Shown here: in pieces, positions 4,571 through 58,855 of the stretch | Layout: every line of letters begins with the position of its first letter | Numbering within the stretch: position 1 is the first letter of the stretch | NCBI GenBank assembly: GCA_902756345.1 | Contig: CACVQR010000001.1 | Location: 186,001-250,000, forward strand | Origin: Fibrobacter succinogenes | GTDB taxonomy: Bacteria > Fibrobacterota > Fibrobacteria > Fibrobacterales > Fibrobacteraceae | DNA length: 64,000 bases | Direction: 5' to 3' | Made by a program: the position numbers and the translations under genes | Notes under the pieces: model-generated | The model's database searches: none | What the model was told of the DNA's origin: nothing | Seen by the model: only the letters and a program-made list of their open reading frames with translations

Positions 4571-4654
4571 CACCTCACACTCCACACTTCGCACTAACCA
4601 CTGTCTACTACCTACCGTCTACTTCCTACTGTCTACTTCCTACTGTCTACTAAC
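4571..4654 (+). repeat. 12-unit heptamer tandem array before start codon
   Basis: Twelve consecutive 7-bp units run from CACCTCA at 4571 to TACTAAC at 4648-4654. Most fit YACTNNC, with TACTGTC three times and TACTTCC twice. The array ends 1 bp before the ATG of the glycosyltransferase gene, so that gene has no Shine-Dalgarno sequence. Just upstream, TGTGAG-AA-GTGTA pairs with TACACCTCACA, giving the element an inverted left arm. Related arrays lie at 27103-27130, 27212-27239 and 52266-52314. Confidence 0.85.
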
Positions 4655-5654: not shown

Positions 5655-7523
5655 TTACTTCACGATTTCGGCGTCGACGACCTTCTTGCCATTCACGGTC
5701 TTCGGGCCGTTATTGCCGTTGTCGCGGCGGATGATCTTGTACTGAATGATGCTCCAGAAGTTAGACACGATCCAGTAGAGCACAAGGCCAGACGGCATCA
5801 CCGCGCTGAACAGGAACATCATAGCGGGCATCATCCAAGTCATCATCTTAGCCTGGGCGGGGTCCATGGCGCCGTTGCCGCTCATGGTTACCTTGGTTTG
5901 GAAGTAGGTGGTAACCACCATAATCCACGGGAGCAGGGCGAGGCCATCGGGCATGAGGAACGGAATGCTGAAGCCGTGGAAGATCACGTCGCTACGGCTG
6001 AGGTCGGTAATCCAGAGGAAGGCCGGCATGCCGCGGAGTTCGACGGCGCGACCGAGCACGAAGAAGAGGCCCATGAAAATCGGCATCTGGATAATCATCG
6101 GGAGGCAGCCGCCGGTGCAGCTGGCGAGCGGGTTCACGCCGTTCTTGGCGTAGAGTTCCATAATGGCGGCCTGCTTCTTCTGCGGATCGCTGCGGTACTT
6201 CACGTTGATTTCGTCGAGCTGCGGCTTGAGCTTGCTCATGGCAGAAGTCGACTTGAGCTGCTTGATGGTGAACGGGGTCGTAATACCGCGCACGATGAAG
6301 GTCACGAGGATAATGGCGACGCCGTAGTTCGGAATGATGGAGTAGAAGAACTTGAGCAGCTTGAGGAGCATGGCGCAAATCCACACGAACCAGACGCTGG
6401 AACCGGGGAACCACTTGGAACCGGTCACGATAATCTTTTCATAGCCCTGGCCGAGAGATTCGACTTCGGCCCATTCCAGCGGGAGCACCATAAAGTTGTA
6501 GGCAACGGAATCGCCGCGCACGGCGTCTGCAATGGAGAGGCTGTAGGTACCCGGATCCGGGTTGCCTTCGGTCGCCAAATTGATGTGCTTGGCCTTGACC
6601 TGGGCGGGCACCGGAGAATCGAACTGCACCGACATCGCTACATACTTGCGGCGCATGCCGACCCAGTAGTAGTTGGCGTTGTCGAAGGTCATGGCATCGT
6701 TGAATGTTTCGCGTTCGGTGATTTCGTTGTTCTTGAAAATCACTTCGCTAAAGAAGTAGCTGGTACCGCCGAAGCTCTTGCCCTTCGGGAATTCTTCGGT
6801 TTCACGCATGCCGCCCTTCCAGGAGAGCTCGTACTTGTCGACGCGGAAACCCTTGAACTTGTTCACCTGGCGAACAGCGACGCCAGCCTTGGTAAAGCCG
6901 TAGCTACGCACGAGCTGGTTGCCGTTGGCATCGGTAAAGACAAACTGCACCGTGGTATCGTTTTCGACATTGATCCATTCCGGAGCGTCTACATTGAACA
7001 TGACTTCGGAAAGGTCCGCACCGCCGAGGTTCAGGTCGAGGGCGCCGAGCGCGGTATCCTGAATGAGTTCGGGGAAATGGTTTGCGGAATCCGGCAGGGC
7101 CTTGACGATAACGCTCTGGACCTTGCCGCCCTTGTTAGAAAGGGTCATGATGAACTTGTCGGTTTCGACCGTGACCGTACGCGGGGCGATTACCTTCGGG
7201 GCTTCGACGGCGGCAGAGGAAGAATCGCTTGTAACGACACTTGACGTATCCCCCGCTGCCTTCAATTCCGAATTCTGAATTCCGGATTCCGAATTTCCAA
7301 GAACCGGGGCAGCCTTAATCTCGGCAGTTGCGCCGGGGAGCACGAGTCCGCTTGCGGACGGAGATTCGGCAGAATCGGCGACCTGGGCGGCGGCTTCCTT
7401 CGCTGCAGCCTGCTTTGCGAGCTTGGCCTTTTCGGCAGCTTCGTTGTTTGCGCTCGTCATGGAGAACCACCAAATCATGATGGCTGCGATAAGGACTGAT
7501 CCGATAAGAGTATTCTTGTTCAT
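5655..7523 (-). CDS. yidC: membrane protein insertase YidC
   Basis: Inserts and folds inner-membrane proteins, alone or with the Sec translocon. The 622-aa protein has the long Gram-negative form: TM1 (about residues 7-22), a low-complexity linker (about 28-115), the large periplasmic P1 domain (about 120-380), then the conserved insertase core with TM segments such as YGVAIILVTFIVRGIT and MIIQMPIFMGLFFVLGRAV and a basic tail. Last gene of rpmH-rnpA-yidD-yidC; its ATG overlaps the yidD stop by 4 bp. The linker contains a heptamer tandem repeat (7265-7299) encoding a run around NSESGIQNSE. Confidence 0.95.
   Translation of the reverse strand: MNKNTLIGSVLIAAIMIWWFSMTSANNEAAEKAKLAKQAAAKEAAAQVADSAESPSASGLVLPGATAEIKAAPVLGNSESGIQNSELKAAGDTSSVVTSDSSSAAVEAPKVIAPRTVTVETDKFIMTLSNKGGKVQSVIVKALPDSANHFPELIQDTALGALDLNLGGADLSEVMFNVDAPEWINVENDTTVQFVFTDANGNQLVRSYGFTKAGVAVRQVNKFKGFRVDKYELSWKGGMRETEEFPKGKSFGGTSYFFSEVIFKNNEITERETFNDAMTFDNANYYWVGMRRKYVAMSVQFDSPVPAQVKAKHINLATEGNPDPGTYSLSIADAVRGDSVAYNFMVLPLEWAEVESLGQGYEKIIVTGSKWFPGSSVWFVWICAMLLKLLKFFYSIIPNYGVAIILVTFIVRGITTPFTIKQLKSTSAMSKLKPQLDEINVKYRSDPQKKQAAIMELYAKNGVNPLASCTGGCLPMIIQMPIFMGLFFVLGRAVELRGMPAFLWITDLSRSDVIFHGFSIPFLMPDGLALLPWIMVVTTYFQTKVTMSGNGAMDPAQAKMMTWMMPAMMFLFSAVMPSGLVLYWIVSNFWSIIQYKIIRRDNGNNGPKTVNGKKVVDAEIVK
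7265..7299 (-). repeat. heptamer array inside yidC linker
   Basis: Five 7-bp units on the plus strand: ATTCCGA, ATTCTGA, ATTCCGG, ATTCCGA, ATTTCCA. Three units span 21 bp, so the array reads as a 7-residue periodicity. It lies in the poorly conserved linker of YidC. The same unit family occurs at 54813-54840, 54876-54903 and 58822-58849, all outside genes. Confidence 0.75.
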
Positions 7524-26098: not shown

Positions 26099-27136
26099 TT
26101 ATTTTCGCTCTAATTCCAGAATATCGGCCTGCAAGGTAACATCGTCCGGGAAGTAGGTCTGGGCAGCGCGCAACAAGCGCAAGGCTTCGTCGTCGCGCTT
26201 TTGAGCGTGGGCATCGTAGGCCATGTTCTTGTAGCCGAATACGGCTTCGGTGTTACCCTGCTTTGCGGCAAGCTCGTAGGCGGATTCGGCGCGGTCGAGG
26301 AACTTGGCGTCATAAGCCAGGTTCCCGAGGAAGATGGCGGCATCGCTAAAGTCGGGCTTGATTTGAGTGAGATTGTTGAGCACATCCATCGCCACGAAGG
26401 GTTTGTTGTCTTCGGCAAGAACATCGGCGAGTTTGTACATGGTCGCGGGATCATCAGGACGTACCCCCAGCGCTTCGCGGTAAGCGGCAGCACTTTCTTC
26501 GTACTGTTTGTTCAGGCGGTAAACATCACCTAGGTAAACCAGGAAGTCGATTTCTTCGGGGTGGGCGGCATAGCCTTCGCGAATCACGGTCACGGCGCGT
26601 TCAAAATCGTTGAGCGAGATGTTCGCTTCGGAAAGCTGGTACACGATGCTGATGTCTTCTTTGTCGAGCTGGTAGGCTTTTTCGATGGCACGCAAGGCGC
26701 CGACCGCGTCGCCGGTTTTACTGTAGGCTTCGCCTAAGTAAAGCCAACCGGAAACATTTTCCGGTTCCAGTTTCAACGCGCGGTGATACGCCGCCACGCA
26801 TTCCGGATACTGCTTGAGTCGAAAATACACGCTCGCCATGTTGAAGAGCGCTGGCGAAAACGCTCCGTTCGAAAAATCAATCGCCTTGCGGTAAGTGGCG
26901 GCGGCCTCGGGCAAGTTTTCTAGCTGGTAATAGCTGTTCGCGATGTTGAAACTGGTGGCGACGGGGTCCGCGCCGCGAGATTCAGCCTTGCGGTAAAGCA
27001 TAATGGCCTGCTTGAATTTTCCGTCGCGGTAAAGGGCATTCGCACGTTCCATCAAATCATACGCGGACTGCGCCGCAAAACAAGAGGCAGCAAAGGAAAA
27101 AAGTAGGAAGTAGGAAGTAGGAAGTAGACAGAACAT
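26099..27136 (-). CDS. TPR protein of the TtpC/TonB operon
   Basis: About 345 aa, almost entirely tetratricopeptide repeats (around nine, for example ANALYRDGKFKQAIMLYRKA and LYLGEAYSKTGDAVGALRAI). Last gene of a DUF3450-ttpC-exbB-exbD-tonB-TPR operon; such TPR proteins accompany TonB2/TtpC systems and are thought to act in the periplasm. I place the start at 27136, where GGAAGAG lies 5 bp upstream and a signal peptide (MFCLLPTSYFLLFSFAASC) begins at once. The in-frame ATG at 27196 would add 20 residues before it and has no good ribosome site. The core of that signal peptide is encoded by a heptamer tandem array (27103-27130). Confidence 0.82.
   Translation of the reverse strand: MFCLLPTSYFLLFSFAASCFAAQSAYDLMERANALYRDGKFKQAIMLYRKAESRGADPVATSFNIANSYYQLENLPEAAATYRKAIDFSNGAFSPALFNMASVYFRLKQYPECVAAYHRALKLEPENVSGWLYLGEAYSKTGDAVGALRAIEKAYQLDKEDISIVYQLSEANISLNDFERAVTVIREGYAAHPEEIDFLVYLGDVYRLNKQYEESAAAYREALGVRPDDPATMYKLADVLAEDNKPFVAMDVLNNLTQIKPDFSDAAIFLGNLAYDAKFLDRAESAYELAAKQGNTEAVFGYKNMAYDAHAQKRDDEALRLLRAAQTYFPDDVTLQADILELERK
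27103..27130 (-). repeat. heptamer array encoding signal peptide core
   Basis: Four 7-bp units: GTAGGAA three times and GTAGACA once. This is the reverse complement of the TACTTCC/TACTGTC units at 4571-4654. It lies in frame within the signal peptide of the TPR protein (CLLPTSYFLL). Confidence 0.8.
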
Positions 27137-27211
27137 AGAGCTCTTCCGCAACCCACAAAAACTATTTAAAATCTTTTCAAAGAACATAACTTCCATCTCT
27201 ACTTAAAATAA

Positions 27212-27239
27212 TACTGCCTACTGTCTACCGTCTACTTCT
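27212..27239 (+). repeat. heptamer array between tonB and TPR gene
   Basis: Four units: TACTGCC, TACTGTC, TACCGTC, TACTTCT. It fills most of the gap between the tonB stop and the upstream candidate start of the TPR gene, in inverted orientation to the array at 27103-27130 about 80 bp away. Confidence 0.75.
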
Positions 27240-27241
27240 AA

Positions 27242-27889
27242 CTAATCCCTAAACTTCACTTCGAACGGTTGTTCCATGCCACAGAAGGGCACCGCCTTGC
27301 CCGCCTTTTCGGCAGGGCTAAACGTCATGCGGCCAAGAGCCTCTCGACCGGCCTGCGCAAGCCCAGAGCCAGCAGGAGATTCTTCCAGGACCTTGATGTC
27401 GTATGCCTTGCCGCTGACATCGACGCAAAAACTGAGTCGGAGCGTCGCATCGATTTCGTTATCGCGAATCTTGGGCGGCACCTGAAAATTCACCATGCTG
27501 CGGCTTTCGGGTTTCTTGTCCACATCGCCTTTTTCCGTCGAAAGCGCTCCGCCGCGGAAATCGGCCACCAAGTCGCGGCTGACGGCTGCGCCACCGTTAC
27601 CCGAAGCAGCCCCCAGGTTCATCGCAAAGCGCGGGCCCGCCTTGGGCGAGCGGGAATTTGATTTCATGCGATTCGGCTTGCGTGCGGGCTTTTTCTTTTC
27701 CACCTTTTTCTCGACTTCGTCAACCTTCTTAATCGCAATTTCGGTCTTGTTGTATTTCTTTTCATGAAAGACCTTGCCGCTCAAGAACAAGTTCGCCATC
27801 GTCACCGAGAACACGAGAAGCATACTCGCGAGAACCGCCGCAAGTAAAATGCTAAAACGCTTCACTATTTTTTTCAAATATCTAAACAT
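27242..27889 (-). CDS. tonB: TonB family energy transducer
   Basis: Transmits inner-membrane proton motive force to outer-membrane receptors. The 215-aa protein has an N-terminal membrane anchor (about residues 13-37), a Lys/Pro/Arg-rich spacer (KKKPARKPNRMKS, about 65-80), a glycine-rich stretch and a C-terminal TonB-like domain (ATLRLSFCVDVSGKAYDIKVLEESP, then REALGRMTFSPAEKAGKAV). The spacer is short for crossing the periplasm, as in TonB2-type proteins that rely on TtpC. Fifth gene of the operon, preceded by a 116-bp repeat-containing gap after exbD. Confidence 0.85.
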   Translation of the reverse strand: MFRYLKKIVKRFSILLAAVLASMLLVFSVTMANLFLSGKVFHEKKYNKTEIAIKKVDEVEKKVEKKKPARKPNRMKSNSRSPKAGPRFAMNLGAASGNGGAAVSRDLVADFRGGALSTEKGDVDKKPESRSMVNFQVPPKIRDNEIDATLRLSFCVDVSGKAYDIKVLEESPAGSGLAQAGREALGRMTFSPAEKAGKAVPFCGMEQPFEVKFRD

Positions 27890-27945
27890 ACAATCAAAAA
27901 AAATCTTACTTAGATCTTTCGACGCGCTCCGCGTGCTCCTGCGAA

Positions 27946-28020
27946 CCTAACTCAACTACAGAACTAAAGTTCTAAGTTTCGTATAGCTCAGGATGACACT
28001 ACGTGTCACTCCGCCTGAGC
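27946..28020. repeat. two adjacent palindromic elements in exbD-tonB gap
   Basis: 27946-27980 is a 7-bp-periodic inverted element: CCTAACT, CAACTAC, AGAACTA, then AAGTTCT, AAGTTTC. 27986-28020 is a nested hairpin: GCTCAGG/CCTGAGC outside and TGACAC/GTGTCA inside. The second hairpin covers the exbD stop (28006-28008) and its last four codons, so the element supplies the C-terminus of ExbD. It may attenuate or stabilise the operon mRNA. Confidence 0.6.
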
Positions 28021-28410
28021 CGCGATAGAGACCTTTTTTACTCCAGCCAAGTTGCACATGTCAATCACCTGCACCAACACGCCCGTTTCAGCCCCCTTGT
28101 CGGCAATCACCACCGCTTCGCGATCCGGAGCCTTCGCAAGCGACTGCTTCAAGATATCCTGCAAACTCGCCAAGTCTACCTGACGTTCGTTCATGTGAAT
28201 CGTGCCTTCGCGCGTAATGGCAATCAGCAAGTTCTCCTTTTCGAGCTGGCTTGCAGACTGTGCCTGCGGCTTCGTCACATCCACACCCGTTTCACGCGTA
28301 AACGAAGACGTCACCACAAAGAAAATGAGCAAGATGAACACGATATCCATCAGCGGGCCCATTTCGATGCCCATATCTTTCTGCTTTCTTCTCGGCAAAT
28401 TGAATTCCAT
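28006..28410 (-). CDS. exbD: ExbD/TolR family biopolymer transporter
   Basis: Inner-membrane partner of ExbB in the proton channel that drives TonB. It has 134 aa: a short cytoplasmic N-terminus (RRKQKDMGIEMGPLMDIVFILLIFF) with the conserved membrane Asp (D22), one TM segment and a periplasmic domain (AIVITREGTIH-type; VVIADKGAETGVLVQVIDMC). It fits the family length. Upstream lies exbB, with a palindromic repeat in the 59-bp gap. Confidence 0.93.
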   Translation of the reverse strand: MEFNLPRRKQKDMGIEMGPLMDIVFILLIFFVVTSSFTRETGVDVTKPQAQSASQLEKENLLIAITREGTIHMNERQVDLASLQDILKQSLAKAPDREAVVIADKGAETGVLVQVIDMCNLAGVKKVSIAAQAE

Positions 28411-28469: not shown

Positions 28470-29153
28470 TCACAGGCACTTACTCTCCACAAAATAATTC
28501 TCTATCACGGTCGCGCCGAGTTCCATCTTCTGGCGCAAAATTTCAACACGTTCATCCAGGCGCTGTTTCAAGAGCGTAAGCGGGAATGCGACAAGCAAGC
28601 CACTCTGCGTCGAGATCAACGCTTCGGAAATTCCATCGGCCATGAGCACCGGGTTCTGGTTTCCGTAAAGCGTAATCACCTCAAAAGTCGAGACCATGCC
28701 CGTCACGGTTCCAAGGAGCCCCAGAAGCGGCGCTGCCGAGGCCATCACAGACACAATGTGGTTTCCTTGTTCCATGTAGCGTACCGTTTTCATCATGCGT
28801 ACTTGCATGTAGTCGCGGAATCCTTCAGGATTTTCCTTCGCCACATCAATGGCATAACTCAGCTCGCGGCCCAAAAGTCCGCCACGCTTGCGGAGCCTGC
28901 GTAATGCCTTCTCGACGCTCGGGGGTTCGGCATTCTTTTCGTATTCTTCGTTACCGCCGTTCAAGTCAAGACGCATGCGCTTGATGACCTTGTGAATATC
29001 GGCACGGAAGAAATCACTCCCGATACGGAACCAGCTCGAAAACAGAAAGTAGAATCCGATAACGCCTGCCAAGAGAATCGGGAGCATGACCACGCCACCC
29101 GCCTGGTAAGTGTTCTGCAGAGATTCCAGGAATATGTAATGGGTGTTAGACAT
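28470..29153 (-). CDS. exbB: MotA/TolQ/ExbB proton channel protein
   Basis: A 227-aa inner-membrane proton channel subunit with three TM segments (LPILLAGVIGFYFLF near residue 20; ASAAPLLGLLGTVTGMVSTF near 135; a third around SGLLVAFPLTLLK). The conserved PLLGLLGTVTGM signature is present. Third gene of the DUF3450-ttpC-exbB-exbD-tonB-TPR operon, 6 bp after ttpC. Confidence 0.92.
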   Translation of the reverse strand: MSNTHYIFLESLQNTYQAGGVVMLPILLAGVIGFYFLFSSWFRIGSDFFRADIHKVIKRMRLDLNGGNEEYEKNAEPPSVEKALRRLRKRGGLLGRELSYAIDVAKENPEGFRDYMQVRMMKTVRYMEQGNHIVSVMASAAPLLGLLGTVTGMVSTFEVITLYGNQNPVLMADGISEALISTQSGLLVAFPLTLLKQRLDERVEILRQKMELGATVIENYFVESKCL

Positions 29154-29159
29154 GCCCGC

Positions 29160-30722
29160 TTACGCTTCCTTCCCGAAAATCCTGTTCAACAGCGAGGTAC
29201 TCTGCACATACATTTCGCTCGTGACCTTTTCAATCTTTTCGCTCAAAAGGCCGTGCAAGATCATCACCGGAATGGCAATCACAAGGCCCGTTTCCGTCGT
29301 CACCAGGGCTTCGGAAATACCGCCAGCCAAAACGCGGGCGTCGTTCGTACCGACTTCGGTAATCACGGTAAAGAGCGTAATGATACCGGTCACCGTACCG
29401 AGCAAGCCAAGCAGCGGAGCAATCGTTCCCATGGCCGCCAACAGGCCCATGCGGCGTTCCAATTTCGGCTGTTCACGCAACATCGCTTCTTGCAGCGAGC
29501 GTTCAGCATCTTCGCGTTTGTCGCGGGCGCGGTTCAGCACCGCAAACAATACCAGCGAAAGGCTTGTTTCCTTTTTCAGGCAAAGGTTCGCGGCATCTTC
29601 GTAACGGGATTCCTTGACAAGCGCATTCAACTTTTTCAAGAAGCGGCGGCCCAAATGTCCGCGGAAAGTCAACACCAGGAAGCGTTCCAAGCAAAGGAGC
29701 AACGCAAAGATCGCCACCAGCATGAGCGGGTACATCACGATACCGCCCTTCTTGAAGAATTCCTTGAACTGTTCGGTCATCGTGAGTTCCTTGGTGTCTG
29801 TAATCGCATTCTTGATAGCCTTATTCTGGAGCACATCCAGCGGAATCACAATCGTCGGCGTCGCATTTTCGCCAGCGGAACCGGCCTGCACCACGGCCTG
29901 CTTTACGTTTCCGGCCATTTCGGGCGGGAGCGTCGCATTCCATTCGAACACCTTGCCCTGCAAGGCACCAGAGCGCAGCAATGCCTGCACGTCACCGTTA
30001 TCTTGTGCGACTTCGCCGAGGAACACGGTACCCAGGCGCAAACGGTTCACGTTTACATCGGGACGGCTCCCCACCTGCGAAGTTTCGCGTCCGTAGAACT
30101 GCGTATAAGTCAGTTCATGGCGGATCAGCAAATCGTCCATGTAGCTCTGCACCGCACCAATCGTATTCGGCGTCGCCTTTTCGGCTTCGTTAGAGGCTTG
30201 CTTCAGGCGAATCAGGCGACCGTTCATGCCCACCGGGTAATCGCCCATGGCATCGCCAAGCGTCTTGTCGATCGAAAGTTTCACCTGCGTATTCAATGCC
30301 TCGTAGGCCGATTCTTCGGACTGCGCACGCTCTTCGGCTTCTTCGGTCAAGCTCTTGCTTGCCGCCACTTCTTCGCTCACGCGGCCAAGATCGGTCGAGA
30401 GCTTGGAATAGCGGGCATCCAGTTCGCGCGAGGCGGCCTGGTGTTCTTCGGTCAACTGGGATTCGGCATAACGCTTGCGCCAGTGTTCGGCTTCAAGCTT
30501 TTCTAGCGAATCAGCCTTCTGCAGGCGAATGCGGGTCAAAGCCTCCACTTCGCGCTGCAAGTTGCGAACTTCTTCGGTCTGCAGGGAATCCTTGATTCGG
30601 GCCTGGTCTTCGGCAGAGGCCTTGCTTTCGCCCGAACCCGACCACGGCCACGCAAATGCAGAAGATGCCGAGAGGAACAGAACTGCAGCAAAGACACCAT
30701 TACACATTTTCACATTAAACAT
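29160..30722 (-). CDS. TtpC-like ExbB-family protein with long periplasmic region
   Basis: A 520-aa protein: signal peptide (cleavage near AFA, residue 24), a ~150-residue coiled coil (residues about 35-160), a beta-rich periplasmic part, then a C-terminal MotA/TolQ/ExbB domain with TM segments (GGIVMYPLMLVAIFALLLC; MGTIAPLLGLLGTVTGIITLF). This matches TtpC of Vibrio TonB2 systems, where a second, larger ExbB-like protein links the short TonB to energy. Its ATG overlaps the DUF3450 stop (TAATG). The gene symbol is left blank because only architecture supports it. Confidence 0.85.
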   Translation of the reverse strand: MFNVKMCNGVFAAVLFLSASSAFAWPWSGSGESKASAEDQARIKDSLQTEEVRNLQREVEALTRIRLQKADSLEKLEAEHWRKRYAESQLTEEHQAASRELDARYSKLSTDLGRVSEEVAASKSLTEEAEERAQSEESAYEALNTQVKLSIDKTLGDAMGDYPVGMNGRLIRLKQASNEAEKATPNTIGAVQSYMDDLLIRHELTYTQFYGRETSQVGSRPDVNVNRLRLGTVFLGEVAQDNGDVQALLRSGALQGKVFEWNATLPPEMAGNVKQAVVQAGSAGENATPTIVIPLDVLQNKAIKNAITDTKELTMTEQFKEFFKKGGIVMYPLMLVAIFALLLCLERFLVLTFRGHLGRRFLKKLNALVKESRYEDAANLCLKKETSLSLVLFAVLNRARDKREDAERSLQEAMLREQPKLERRMGLLAAMGTIAPLLGLLGTVTGIITLFTVITEVGTNDARVLAGGISEALVTTETGLVIAIPVMILHGLLSEKIEKVTSEMYVQSTSLLNRIFGKEA

Positions 30723-31558
30723 TATCTATCACTCCCCACCACAGAAAGGCTTACGGGCAGCTTCACGACCTGAGGCGGCTTTTTCGCCTGCTTCACGTCG
30801 AGCGCGAGTTTTACCGCAGCACGTTCTTCCAGATTCAAGTCTTCGTTCCATTCGTAAACAATCTTGCCGTCCACCATCTTGCGCACGAGCGTTCCGAAAA
30901 CGGTACCGTTGTCGTCGCTGTAAACCATCCACTGGTTACCAATGCGCAGAATCGCCGCATTAATGAGTTCACCGTCTTTACGGGTCAGCGGGCTGTTGAT
31001 GATTGCCACTTCGTCACCGAACTTGGTTTCTTCGGCAACAAGCGACTTCAGGCGAGAAAAGGCTTCTTCTTCGCTGGCGTTACCGCTTTCGATATCGCGG
31101 GTGAGCGATTTGACGCGGTCAAGTCTGCTTTCGCGTTCCCACGGGAGCGTCTGTGCGACTTGAGCTTCTAAACGCTTGCTGATGCCCGCGAGTTCTTCGC
31201 GCAGGGCCTTGCGCTTGGCGGCTACATTGTCGCTCTTGTTTTTGGCGCGGGCCTGCTTGCCCCGTTCCGTCTGGAGTTCTGCAGCCACGTTCTTGATTTT
31301 CACATTCAAGGTATCGATTTCGCTACGACGGCGTTCCGTGTCGGCCTTGTAACGGGCCTGCAACGTCTTGTAACGGGAATCGTCCGCCTTGAGCATCGAA
31401 TCGGTCGAGGCAATCTGGCGGTTCAATTTCTGGATTTCGGAATTCAGCTTGTCTTTTTCCAGCTTCAAGTCGCGAATTTCAGCGTCGCGGTCGGCAAACG
31501 CCACTCCCGAAAGGAGCATCACGACAAGCGTCAACGGTAATAATTTCAGTCGTTTCAT
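30722..31558 (-). CDS. DUF3450-like periplasmic coiled-coil protein
   Basis: First gene of the TtpC/TonB operon. About 278 aa from the ATG at 31558, where GGAAAG precedes the start and a signal peptide follows immediately (MKRLKLLPLTLVVMLLSG, cleaved near AFA). Earlier in-frame starts would only add 18 residues. Residues about 20-145 form a long coiled coil, and the C-terminal part (INAAILRIGNQWMVYSDDNG) fits DUF3450, the usual partner of TtpC. The gene lies downstream of a candidate ECF promoter (31600-31627), about 40 bp before the start. Confidence 0.83.
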   Translation of the reverse strand: MKRLKLLPLTLVVMLLSGVAFADRDAEIRDLKLEKDKLNSEIQKLNRQIASTDSMLKADDSRYKTLQARYKADTERRRSEIDTLNVKIKNVAAELQTERGKQARAKNKSDNVAAKRKALREELAGISKRLEAQVAQTLPWERESRLDRVKSLTRDIESGNASEEEAFSRLKSLVAEETKFGDEVAIINSPLTRKDGELINAAILRIGNQWMVYSDDNGTVFGTLVRKMVDGKIVYEWNEDLNLEERAAVKLALDVKQAKKPPQVVKLPVSLSVVGSDR

Positions 31559-31599
31559 AACTTTCCGCAATAAGTGAGACATCAAAATTACATAATTAA

Positions 31600-31627
31600 A
31601 ACACCCGGCCAAAACAAAAGTGTTACC
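31600..31627 (-). promoter_or_regulatory. candidate ECF promoter of TtpC/TonB operon
   Basis: On the minus strand GGTAACAC (31627-31620), 15 bp, then GTGTT (31604-31600). The same 8-15-5 arrangement occurs at 35834-35861, 39980-40007 and 52221-52248, each upstream of a minus-strand gene. The downstream TAATTATGTAA is shared with the 35834 site. Confidence 0.7.
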
Positions 31628-52265: not shown

Positions 52266-52314
52266 GTAGGAAGTAGGAAGTAGACAGTAGGAAGTAGGCG
52301 GTAGGCAGTGGTTA
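52266..52314 (-). repeat. seven-unit heptamer array upstream of sigma promoter
   Basis: Units GTAGGAA, GTAGGAA, GTAGACA, GTAGGAA, GTAGGCG, GTAGGCA, GTGGTTA. It begins 18 bp upstream of the sigma-gene promoter motif, between it and the end of the FKBP gene. Confidence 0.85.
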
Positions 52315-54812: not shown

Positions 54813-54908
54813 TTCGGTTTTCGGATTTCAGATTTCGGAGTTTTTTAGTTAGGCGGCTTCGCCGCGACTATTCTAATTTCTAATTCCGAACTCTGAATTC
54901 CGAACTAG
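54813..54908. repeat. inverted heptamer element after folD
   Basis: Left arm: TTCGGTT, TTCGGAT, TTCAGAT, TTCGGAG (54813-54840). Right arm: ATTTCTA, ATTCCGA, ACTCTGA, ATTCCGA (54876-54903). The arms are mutually complementary over about 22 bp and flank a GCGGC-ttc-GCCGC hairpin (54854-54866). It starts directly after the folD stop and ends just before the lipoprotein stop at 54909, so it may act as a shared 3' structure. Confidence 0.75.
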
Positions 54909-58821: not shown

Positions 58822-58849
58822 ACTCTGAATTCTGAAATCTGAAATCCGA
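58822..58849 (+). repeat. heptamer array before the LysR-type gene
   Basis: Four units: ACTCTGA, ATTCTGA, AATCTGA, AATCCGA. It ends 6 bp before the regulator ATG, which has no Shine-Dalgarno sequence. Confidence 0.8.
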
Positions 58850-58855
58850 ATTACC

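Follow-up and report, generated by a model that had tools for sequence, protein, structure and literature searches.

At the end of a TonB-type gene cluster in Fibrobacter succinogenes, a tandem heptamer that nearly everywhere else occupies the spacers between genes lies within the predicted N-terminus of a TPR protein. This raises the question of whether the repeat is translated at this locus and, if so, whether it created an export signal or overwrote an existing one. The window, i.e., the whole stretch of 64,000 nucleotides analyzed, corresponds to bases 186001-250000 of contig C1 of the host genome (G000). The cluster runs on the minus strand in the order DUF3450, ExbB with a long N-terminus, ExbB, ExbD, TonB and TPR, the latter gene closing it:

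30722-31612, minus strand: DUF3450 gene, TtpB-like (PF11932)
29160-30722, minus strand: ExbB gene with a long N-terminal extension, TtpC-like (PF01618)
28470-29153, minus strand: ExbB gene (PF01618)
28006-28410, minus strand: ExbD/TolR gene (PF02472)
27242-27889, minus strand: TonB-like gene (PF03544), with the partner array directly after its stop codon
26099-27187, minus strand: TPR protein gene, encoding 362 aa if read from the proposed start, in a TtpD-like operon position

These component types match those of the Vibrio TonB2 system (TtpB2 DUF3450, TtpC2, ExbB2, ExbD2, TonB2 and the TPR protein TtpD2), and in Vibrio vulnificus the TPR and DUF3450 proteins of a similarly composed operon are required for TonB2 function and siderophore uptake (PMC6957404). 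The Fibrobacter TPR protein is called TtpD-like here on the basis of domain content and gene order. The repeat features considered below are the following:

27103-27130, plus strand: heptamer array of four units, GTAGGAA three times and GTAGACA, whose minus-strand reading, TGTCTAC(TTCCTAC)3, falls within the signal peptide
27074-27187, minus strand: proposed signal peptide MFFEKILNSFCGLRKSSMFCLLPTSYFLLFSFAASCFA, predicted to be cut before AQSAYD
27215-27235, minus strand: GTAGACG GTAGACA GTAGGCA, the inverted partner array; it begins 6 nt past the tonB stop codon and lies untranslated in the space between the two genes
4602-4650, minus strand: non-coding array of the same family with seven units; the ATG of a plus-strand gene comes right after it, the array being in CTAC sense relative to that gene
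52266-52307, plus strand: array of the same family, six units; intergenic and non-coding

On the minus strand, the TPR open reading frame reads the four units at 27103-27130 as CLLPTSYFLL (residues 23-32 of the longest ORF), in agreement with a preliminary description of this DNA; the span given there extended to 27136 and took in two codons beyond the array, and the inverted partner array at 27215-27235 was not mentioned. The perfect heptamer tract amounts to 27 nt. Chance is ruled out as its origin, since the 11-mer GTAGGAAGTAG occurs eight times in the window versus none in 100 shuffles and the 18-mer GTAGGAAGTAGACAGTAG 37 times genome-wide, with no copy of the reversed control. The array had also been described as the hydrophobic core of the signal peptide, which holds for the first half of the hydrophobic stretch but not for the core as a whole: the 12-residue hydropathy peak of the TPR N-terminus is FLLFSFAASCFA, to which the array contributes FLL alone, so that the repeat forms the N-terminal half and not the centre. 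The predicted Sec signal has lysine and arginine in its n-region and a cleavage site SCFA/AQ, kept as SFA/AQ in orthologues. Its best 12 residues reach a hydropathy of 2.09, close to the minimum of 2.08 among the array-free orthologues, whose mean is 2.64.

The TPR array is one of about 100 Fibrobacter-specific heptamer arrays; among the 61 genomes searched the repeat is limited to Fibrobacter, within which its distribution is patchy. Its placement was analyzed in 834 kb of the host genome, consisting of nearly the whole of contig 1 and of a remainder mostly picked around known sites. Since 23 of the 40 extra stretches had been picked for holding or neighbouring the 18-mer GTAGGAAGTAGACAGTAG, array densities were taken from contig 1 only. 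Arrays were detected by a core-based scan, exact-unit period scans having missed most of them as the units are mixed, and genes were called with a home-made caller whose starts are approximate. This led to 46 arrays, of which 43 near a gene boundary could be classified: GTAG-sense arrays located after a gene account for 25, 16 of which run over its stop codon, and CTAC-sense arrays located before a gene for 14, the remaining four being exceptions. Sense arrays just after stops and antisense arrays just before starts are hence the rule for 39 of the 43, a pattern which fits the coding properties of the repeat, as the GTAG sense presents TAG in every frame and the CTAC sense no stop in any.

The presence of arrays about 50 nt before called starts had hinted that most CTAC-sense arrays encode signal peptides. 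This possibility was rejected, as 15 of the 16 CTAC-sense arrays at 5' ends are followed 1-18 codons later by an ATG in the frame of the gene, the TPR gene being the sole exception. Recognizable proteins, such as enolase, start at the ATG located after these arrays. The earlier statement that the repeat is non-coding elsewhere is accurate for nearly all copies; two further arrays are nonetheless enclosed by ORFs, each being oriented in the CTAC sense, which lacks stops. One maps to the methyltransferase region encoded by an RlmL-like gene (..PTSYCLL..DLMAGSGTF; L113:12850-12870, G000 C3:72850-72870), while the other precedes the RsgA GTPase domain (..PTSYCLPST..; L125:18397-18424, G000 C6:328397-328424). 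Because the repeat is untranslated in almost all other positions, gene callers may misplace starts beside such arrays. The window contains other period-7 arrays (AATTCCG at 7264-7295, TTCGGAT at 54813-54839 and TCTGAAA at 58824-58850), and period 7 seems over-represented among its short arrays.

The placement rule makes it legitimate to ask whether the TPR array is simply a 5' untranslated region, with translation starting after it or elsewhere and the in-frame peptide being a by-product of a stop-free array. This is the usual position of the repeat, an ATG soon follows 15 of the 16 comparable arrays in the sampled genome and, as the arrays are open in all frames, an open frame alone proves nothing. 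Against this, the sequence from the array to the conserved mature region contains no ATG, GTG or TTG, the first such codon being a TTG 16 codons on, within mature AQSAYDL. Translation must therefore run through the array, and a start downstream of it, the outcome which would have overturned the preliminary description, is excluded for all three codons. The TPR ORF offers ATGs at 27196, 27187 and 27136; the one at 27187-27185 is common to the four closest carriers (L009, L010, L040 and L082), the two others are not shared, and the TPR start is probably this conserved ATG.

The behavior of insertions and deletions points in the same direction. Among aligned groups, indels located 3' of the start measure 3, 3, 3, 18, 24, 51, 57, 69 and 72 nt, i.e., all nine readable ones are multiples of three despite a 7-nt unit, while those located 5' of the start include 1 and 47 nt. 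Without frame constraint, such an outcome would have a chance of about 5e-5, a rough figure given that the groups were picked by eye, that some gaps adjoin the start and that the L019/L081 pair, whose starts are unshared, was left out. The frame-relevant indels mostly belong to the TCTCGTC family of arrays, the CTAC family giving a single one (3 nt), and none of the TPR orthologue rows checked for a frameshift was out of frame. Indels within and upstream of the array thus keep the frame, and orthologues need a signal peptide at this place, so that we regard an exclusively untranslated array as most improbable. The lack of a downstream start, the conserved ATG at 27187, the multiple-of-three indels and the conserved cleavage site jointly give good support to translation of the array within the predicted signal peptide.

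Comparison of orthologous tonB-TPR junctions, many of them from metagenome assemblies, addresses what the array replaced. The array-free orthologues L039, L020 and L029 have ordinary short signal peptides 40-60 nt from the tonB stop, beginning 2-5 nt after it. Array-bearing orthologues mostly have 160-360 nt at this place, where a purine-rich array typically follows the tonB stop and a pyrimidine-rich one is part of the signal peptide. Arrays of the CTACTTC (CTAC) family occupy the signal region in six distinct rows and TCTCGTC arrays in 18, a 19th (L054) being assigned from its translation; a GCTCACC array occurs in one row, TTTTTCA in L088 and ATTTTGC in L035, which belongs to another genus of the same class, the rest having no array. 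The unit count is four in all CTAC carriers examined and in intact TCTCGTC arrays. The c-region and the remainder of the h-region in the array allele are ordinary sequence.

Several of these junctions carry additional repeats. In L035, an inverted GCAAART/ATTTTGC pair flanks the orthologous TPR start and its 3' arm is read as FRFAFCYLRFALCLSLFATASA. The predicted N-terminus of L017 and L051 is longer by SCLEPRAWRLP, owing to an in-frame insertion of a further repeat, CCTCGTGCCTCGAACCTCGAGCCTGGCGCC, which lies between their TCTCGTC arrays or ahead of them. A cryptic CGCTCATTACTCATCGCT stretch in the signal of L039, which has no array, resembles the GCTCACC array that L016 carries in its signal peptide (L016 and L056 compared with L039 and L041). 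Signal-peptide sequence may have given rise to this array or, conversely, CGCTCATTACTCATCGCT of L039 may be a decayed array.

Array families switch or vanish even between near-identical TPR genes, and the tree of TPR coding sequences requires at least 18 changes of array state, which, owing to recombination, serve as an upper guide to independent events and not as a count. In pairwise comparisons, the differing stretch is bounded on one side by the tonB stop and on the other by a point about 5-27 nt ahead of the mature codon: L023 and L083 have unrelated cassettes between flanks that are 97.5% and 95.4% identical, and L009 and L039 show a localized replacement of the same stretch, from the tonB stop to near the mature codon. 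As a control, the exbD-tonB junctions of L019 and L029 were compared. In L019, the exbD stop is immediately followed by an insert of another dispersed repeat that leaves the start of tonB intact, which indicates that spacer cassettes turn over at other junctions too. A dispersed repeat of the TGTCATCCTGAGC...GAAGGATC type lies directly after the exbD stop both at this L019 junction and in the window (27890-28005), where the repeat and the end of exbD together make up a palindrome. The TPR gene differs from tonB in that its signal peptide could absorb a cassette.

The proposal that the array was recruited as an export signal is therefore partly borne out: the repeat is read within the predicted signal peptide, but the array-free orthologues with ordinary signals (L039, L020, L029) imply that the signal predates it, the repeat having overwritten an old signal and not created one. 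Orthologues with a signal peptide encoded without the repeat, which the preliminary description would have taken as a refutation, exist for the gene as a whole and not for this allele.

How the arrays reached this place, and what they do there, could be understood differently. Homologous recombination might swap pre-existing signal-region alleles between species, arrays being passengers and not agents. L019 and L029 are 99.6% identical from -13 onward and 93.5% identical upstream, with unrelated sequence in between, and the CTAC alleles of L019 and of L082/L009 seem related in their n-regions; owing to this possible L019/L029 breakpoint, some switches may represent the transfer of existing alleles. 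As a complete account it is plausible yet on the whole doubtful, since the presence of several heptamer families at the site means that each entered the coding region at least once, and since in L023/L083 the flanks are alike on both sides and only the cassette differs. A phase-variation switch, in which changes in array copy number (7 nt = +1 frame) would alternately permit and abolish production of the TPR protein, by analogy with CTCTT in Neisseria opa leaders, has the appeal of the same anatomy, a repeat whose unit is not a multiple of three inside the code of a leader peptide (PMC3960869). Among the orthologue rows examined, copy number does not vary between related alleles so as to shift the frame; the constant four units in both families, the absence of out-of-frame rows and a perfect tract of just 27 nt make such a switch very unlikely.

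The two inverted arrays could alternatively form an intercistronic hairpin controlling TPR translation, the coding role being incidental. They pair in predicted folds, with z = -1.9 for the window and z below -2 in six of 17 orthologous junctions; z is nevertheless near or above 0 in carriers L030 and L016 and just -0.98 for the window region with slightly different ends, fold energies being weakly below shuffles. The outward placement rule gives pairing anyway, and we consider a primarily regulatory hairpin unlikely. A mobile element or MITE spanning both arrays was also considered and rejected: the segment between them has no other copy in the genome, the arrays alone recurring. The suggestion that the repeat is mobile, which would entail a discrete unit with its flanks at many sites, is accordingly not upheld.

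The reading we favor, and hold to be likely on the strength of these comparisons, is that a spacer heptamer array overwrote part of the TPR signal peptide and is translated, several families having done so in different lineages. In the mechanism we propose, spacers between Fibrobacter genes are colonized by short heptamer arrays facing outward, purine-rich in sense after stops and pyrimidine-rich before starts. The pyrimidine-rich heptamer offers no stop codon in any frame and, seven not being a multiple of three, all frames of such an array translate into one and the same fairly hydrophobic peptide of seven residues (LLPTSYF for CTACTTC and SRLSSLV for TCTCGTC). At the tight tonB-TPR junction, the spacer cassette would have spread into the TPR gene, replacing everything from its start codon through the n-region and into the early h-region, up to near the cleavage site, with an ATG inside the cassette becoming the new TPR start and different families being captured in different lineages. 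The overwritten N-terminus remains signal-like because arrays of this type combine an open frame with hydrophobicity, and signal peptides accept nearly any sequence with these properties. Arrays may have spread by slippage, conversion or recombination; the actual start, cleavage and export of the TPR protein are predicted from sequence.

More tentatively, and with somewhat less than even confidence, it can be proposed that stop-free, frame-invariant and hydrophobic heptamer arrays are ready-made signal-peptide material, and that unrelated families independently overwrote the N-terminus of the same exported protein in Fibrobacterota through a fast-turnover cassette between the upstream stop and the cleavage site. 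The TPR signal stretch has been repeatedly rewritten by repeat DNA, relatives carrying unrelated heptamers at the same place. This locus provides a natural series, within one conserved gene, of repeat DNA becoming protein sequence without apparent loss of the predicted export signal, and a simple reason is offered for this change, as a pyrimidine-rich heptamer is open and hydrophobic whichever frame is read.

In the literature searched on Fibrobacter and heptamer or tandem repeats, no earlier description of such repeats was found, and the closest parallels come from other bacteria. In Neisseria opa, CTCTT coding repeats within the leader peptide act as a phase-variation switch; as in Fibrobacter, a short pyrimidine repeat with a unit that is not a multiple of three sits inside the leader-peptide code, whereas the Fibrobacter arrays have a constant copy number in the orthologues seen, belong to a dispersed intergenic family and differ in family by species (PMC3960869). 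In the parts consulted of a report on Xanthomonas and Nostoc, G-rich heptamer arrays, mostly of about four units and some overlapping stop codons, are located at most 50 bp after stops on the sense strand or at most 50 bp before starts on the antisense strand (PMC4692102). The Fibrobacter arrays share this placement rule of dispersed heptamers, but GTAGGAA/GTAGACA is not a G-quadruplex repeat, its units having at most GG and no run of three or more G, and the same parts of the report describe no signal-peptide capture (PMC4692102). Similarly, the TAACTGA repeats of Beggiatoaceae stop all frames in their forward sense and end genes, while their reverse sense is stop-free and sometimes found in ORFs, mostly at protein ends. 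This strand logic is shared with Fibrobacter, whereas the sequence differs and the sections consulted report neither signal-peptide capture nor turnover of several families in one gene (PMC4679880). In Yersinia, the 168-bp palindromic repeat RU-2 is fused to ORFs such as YPO1552 and, as in Fibrobacter, a dispersed repeat forms part of a predicted signal peptide. RU-2 is, however, a palindromic MITE-like unit found in one putative exported protein, in contrast to a tandem heptamer in a conserved operon gene with several families (PMC2229807). Repeats in leader peptides, a signal-peptide-forming repeat and the heptamer placement rule are each already known separately; what the Fibrobacter locus adds, within the literature searched, is their meeting in the repeated capture of several families by one signal peptide.
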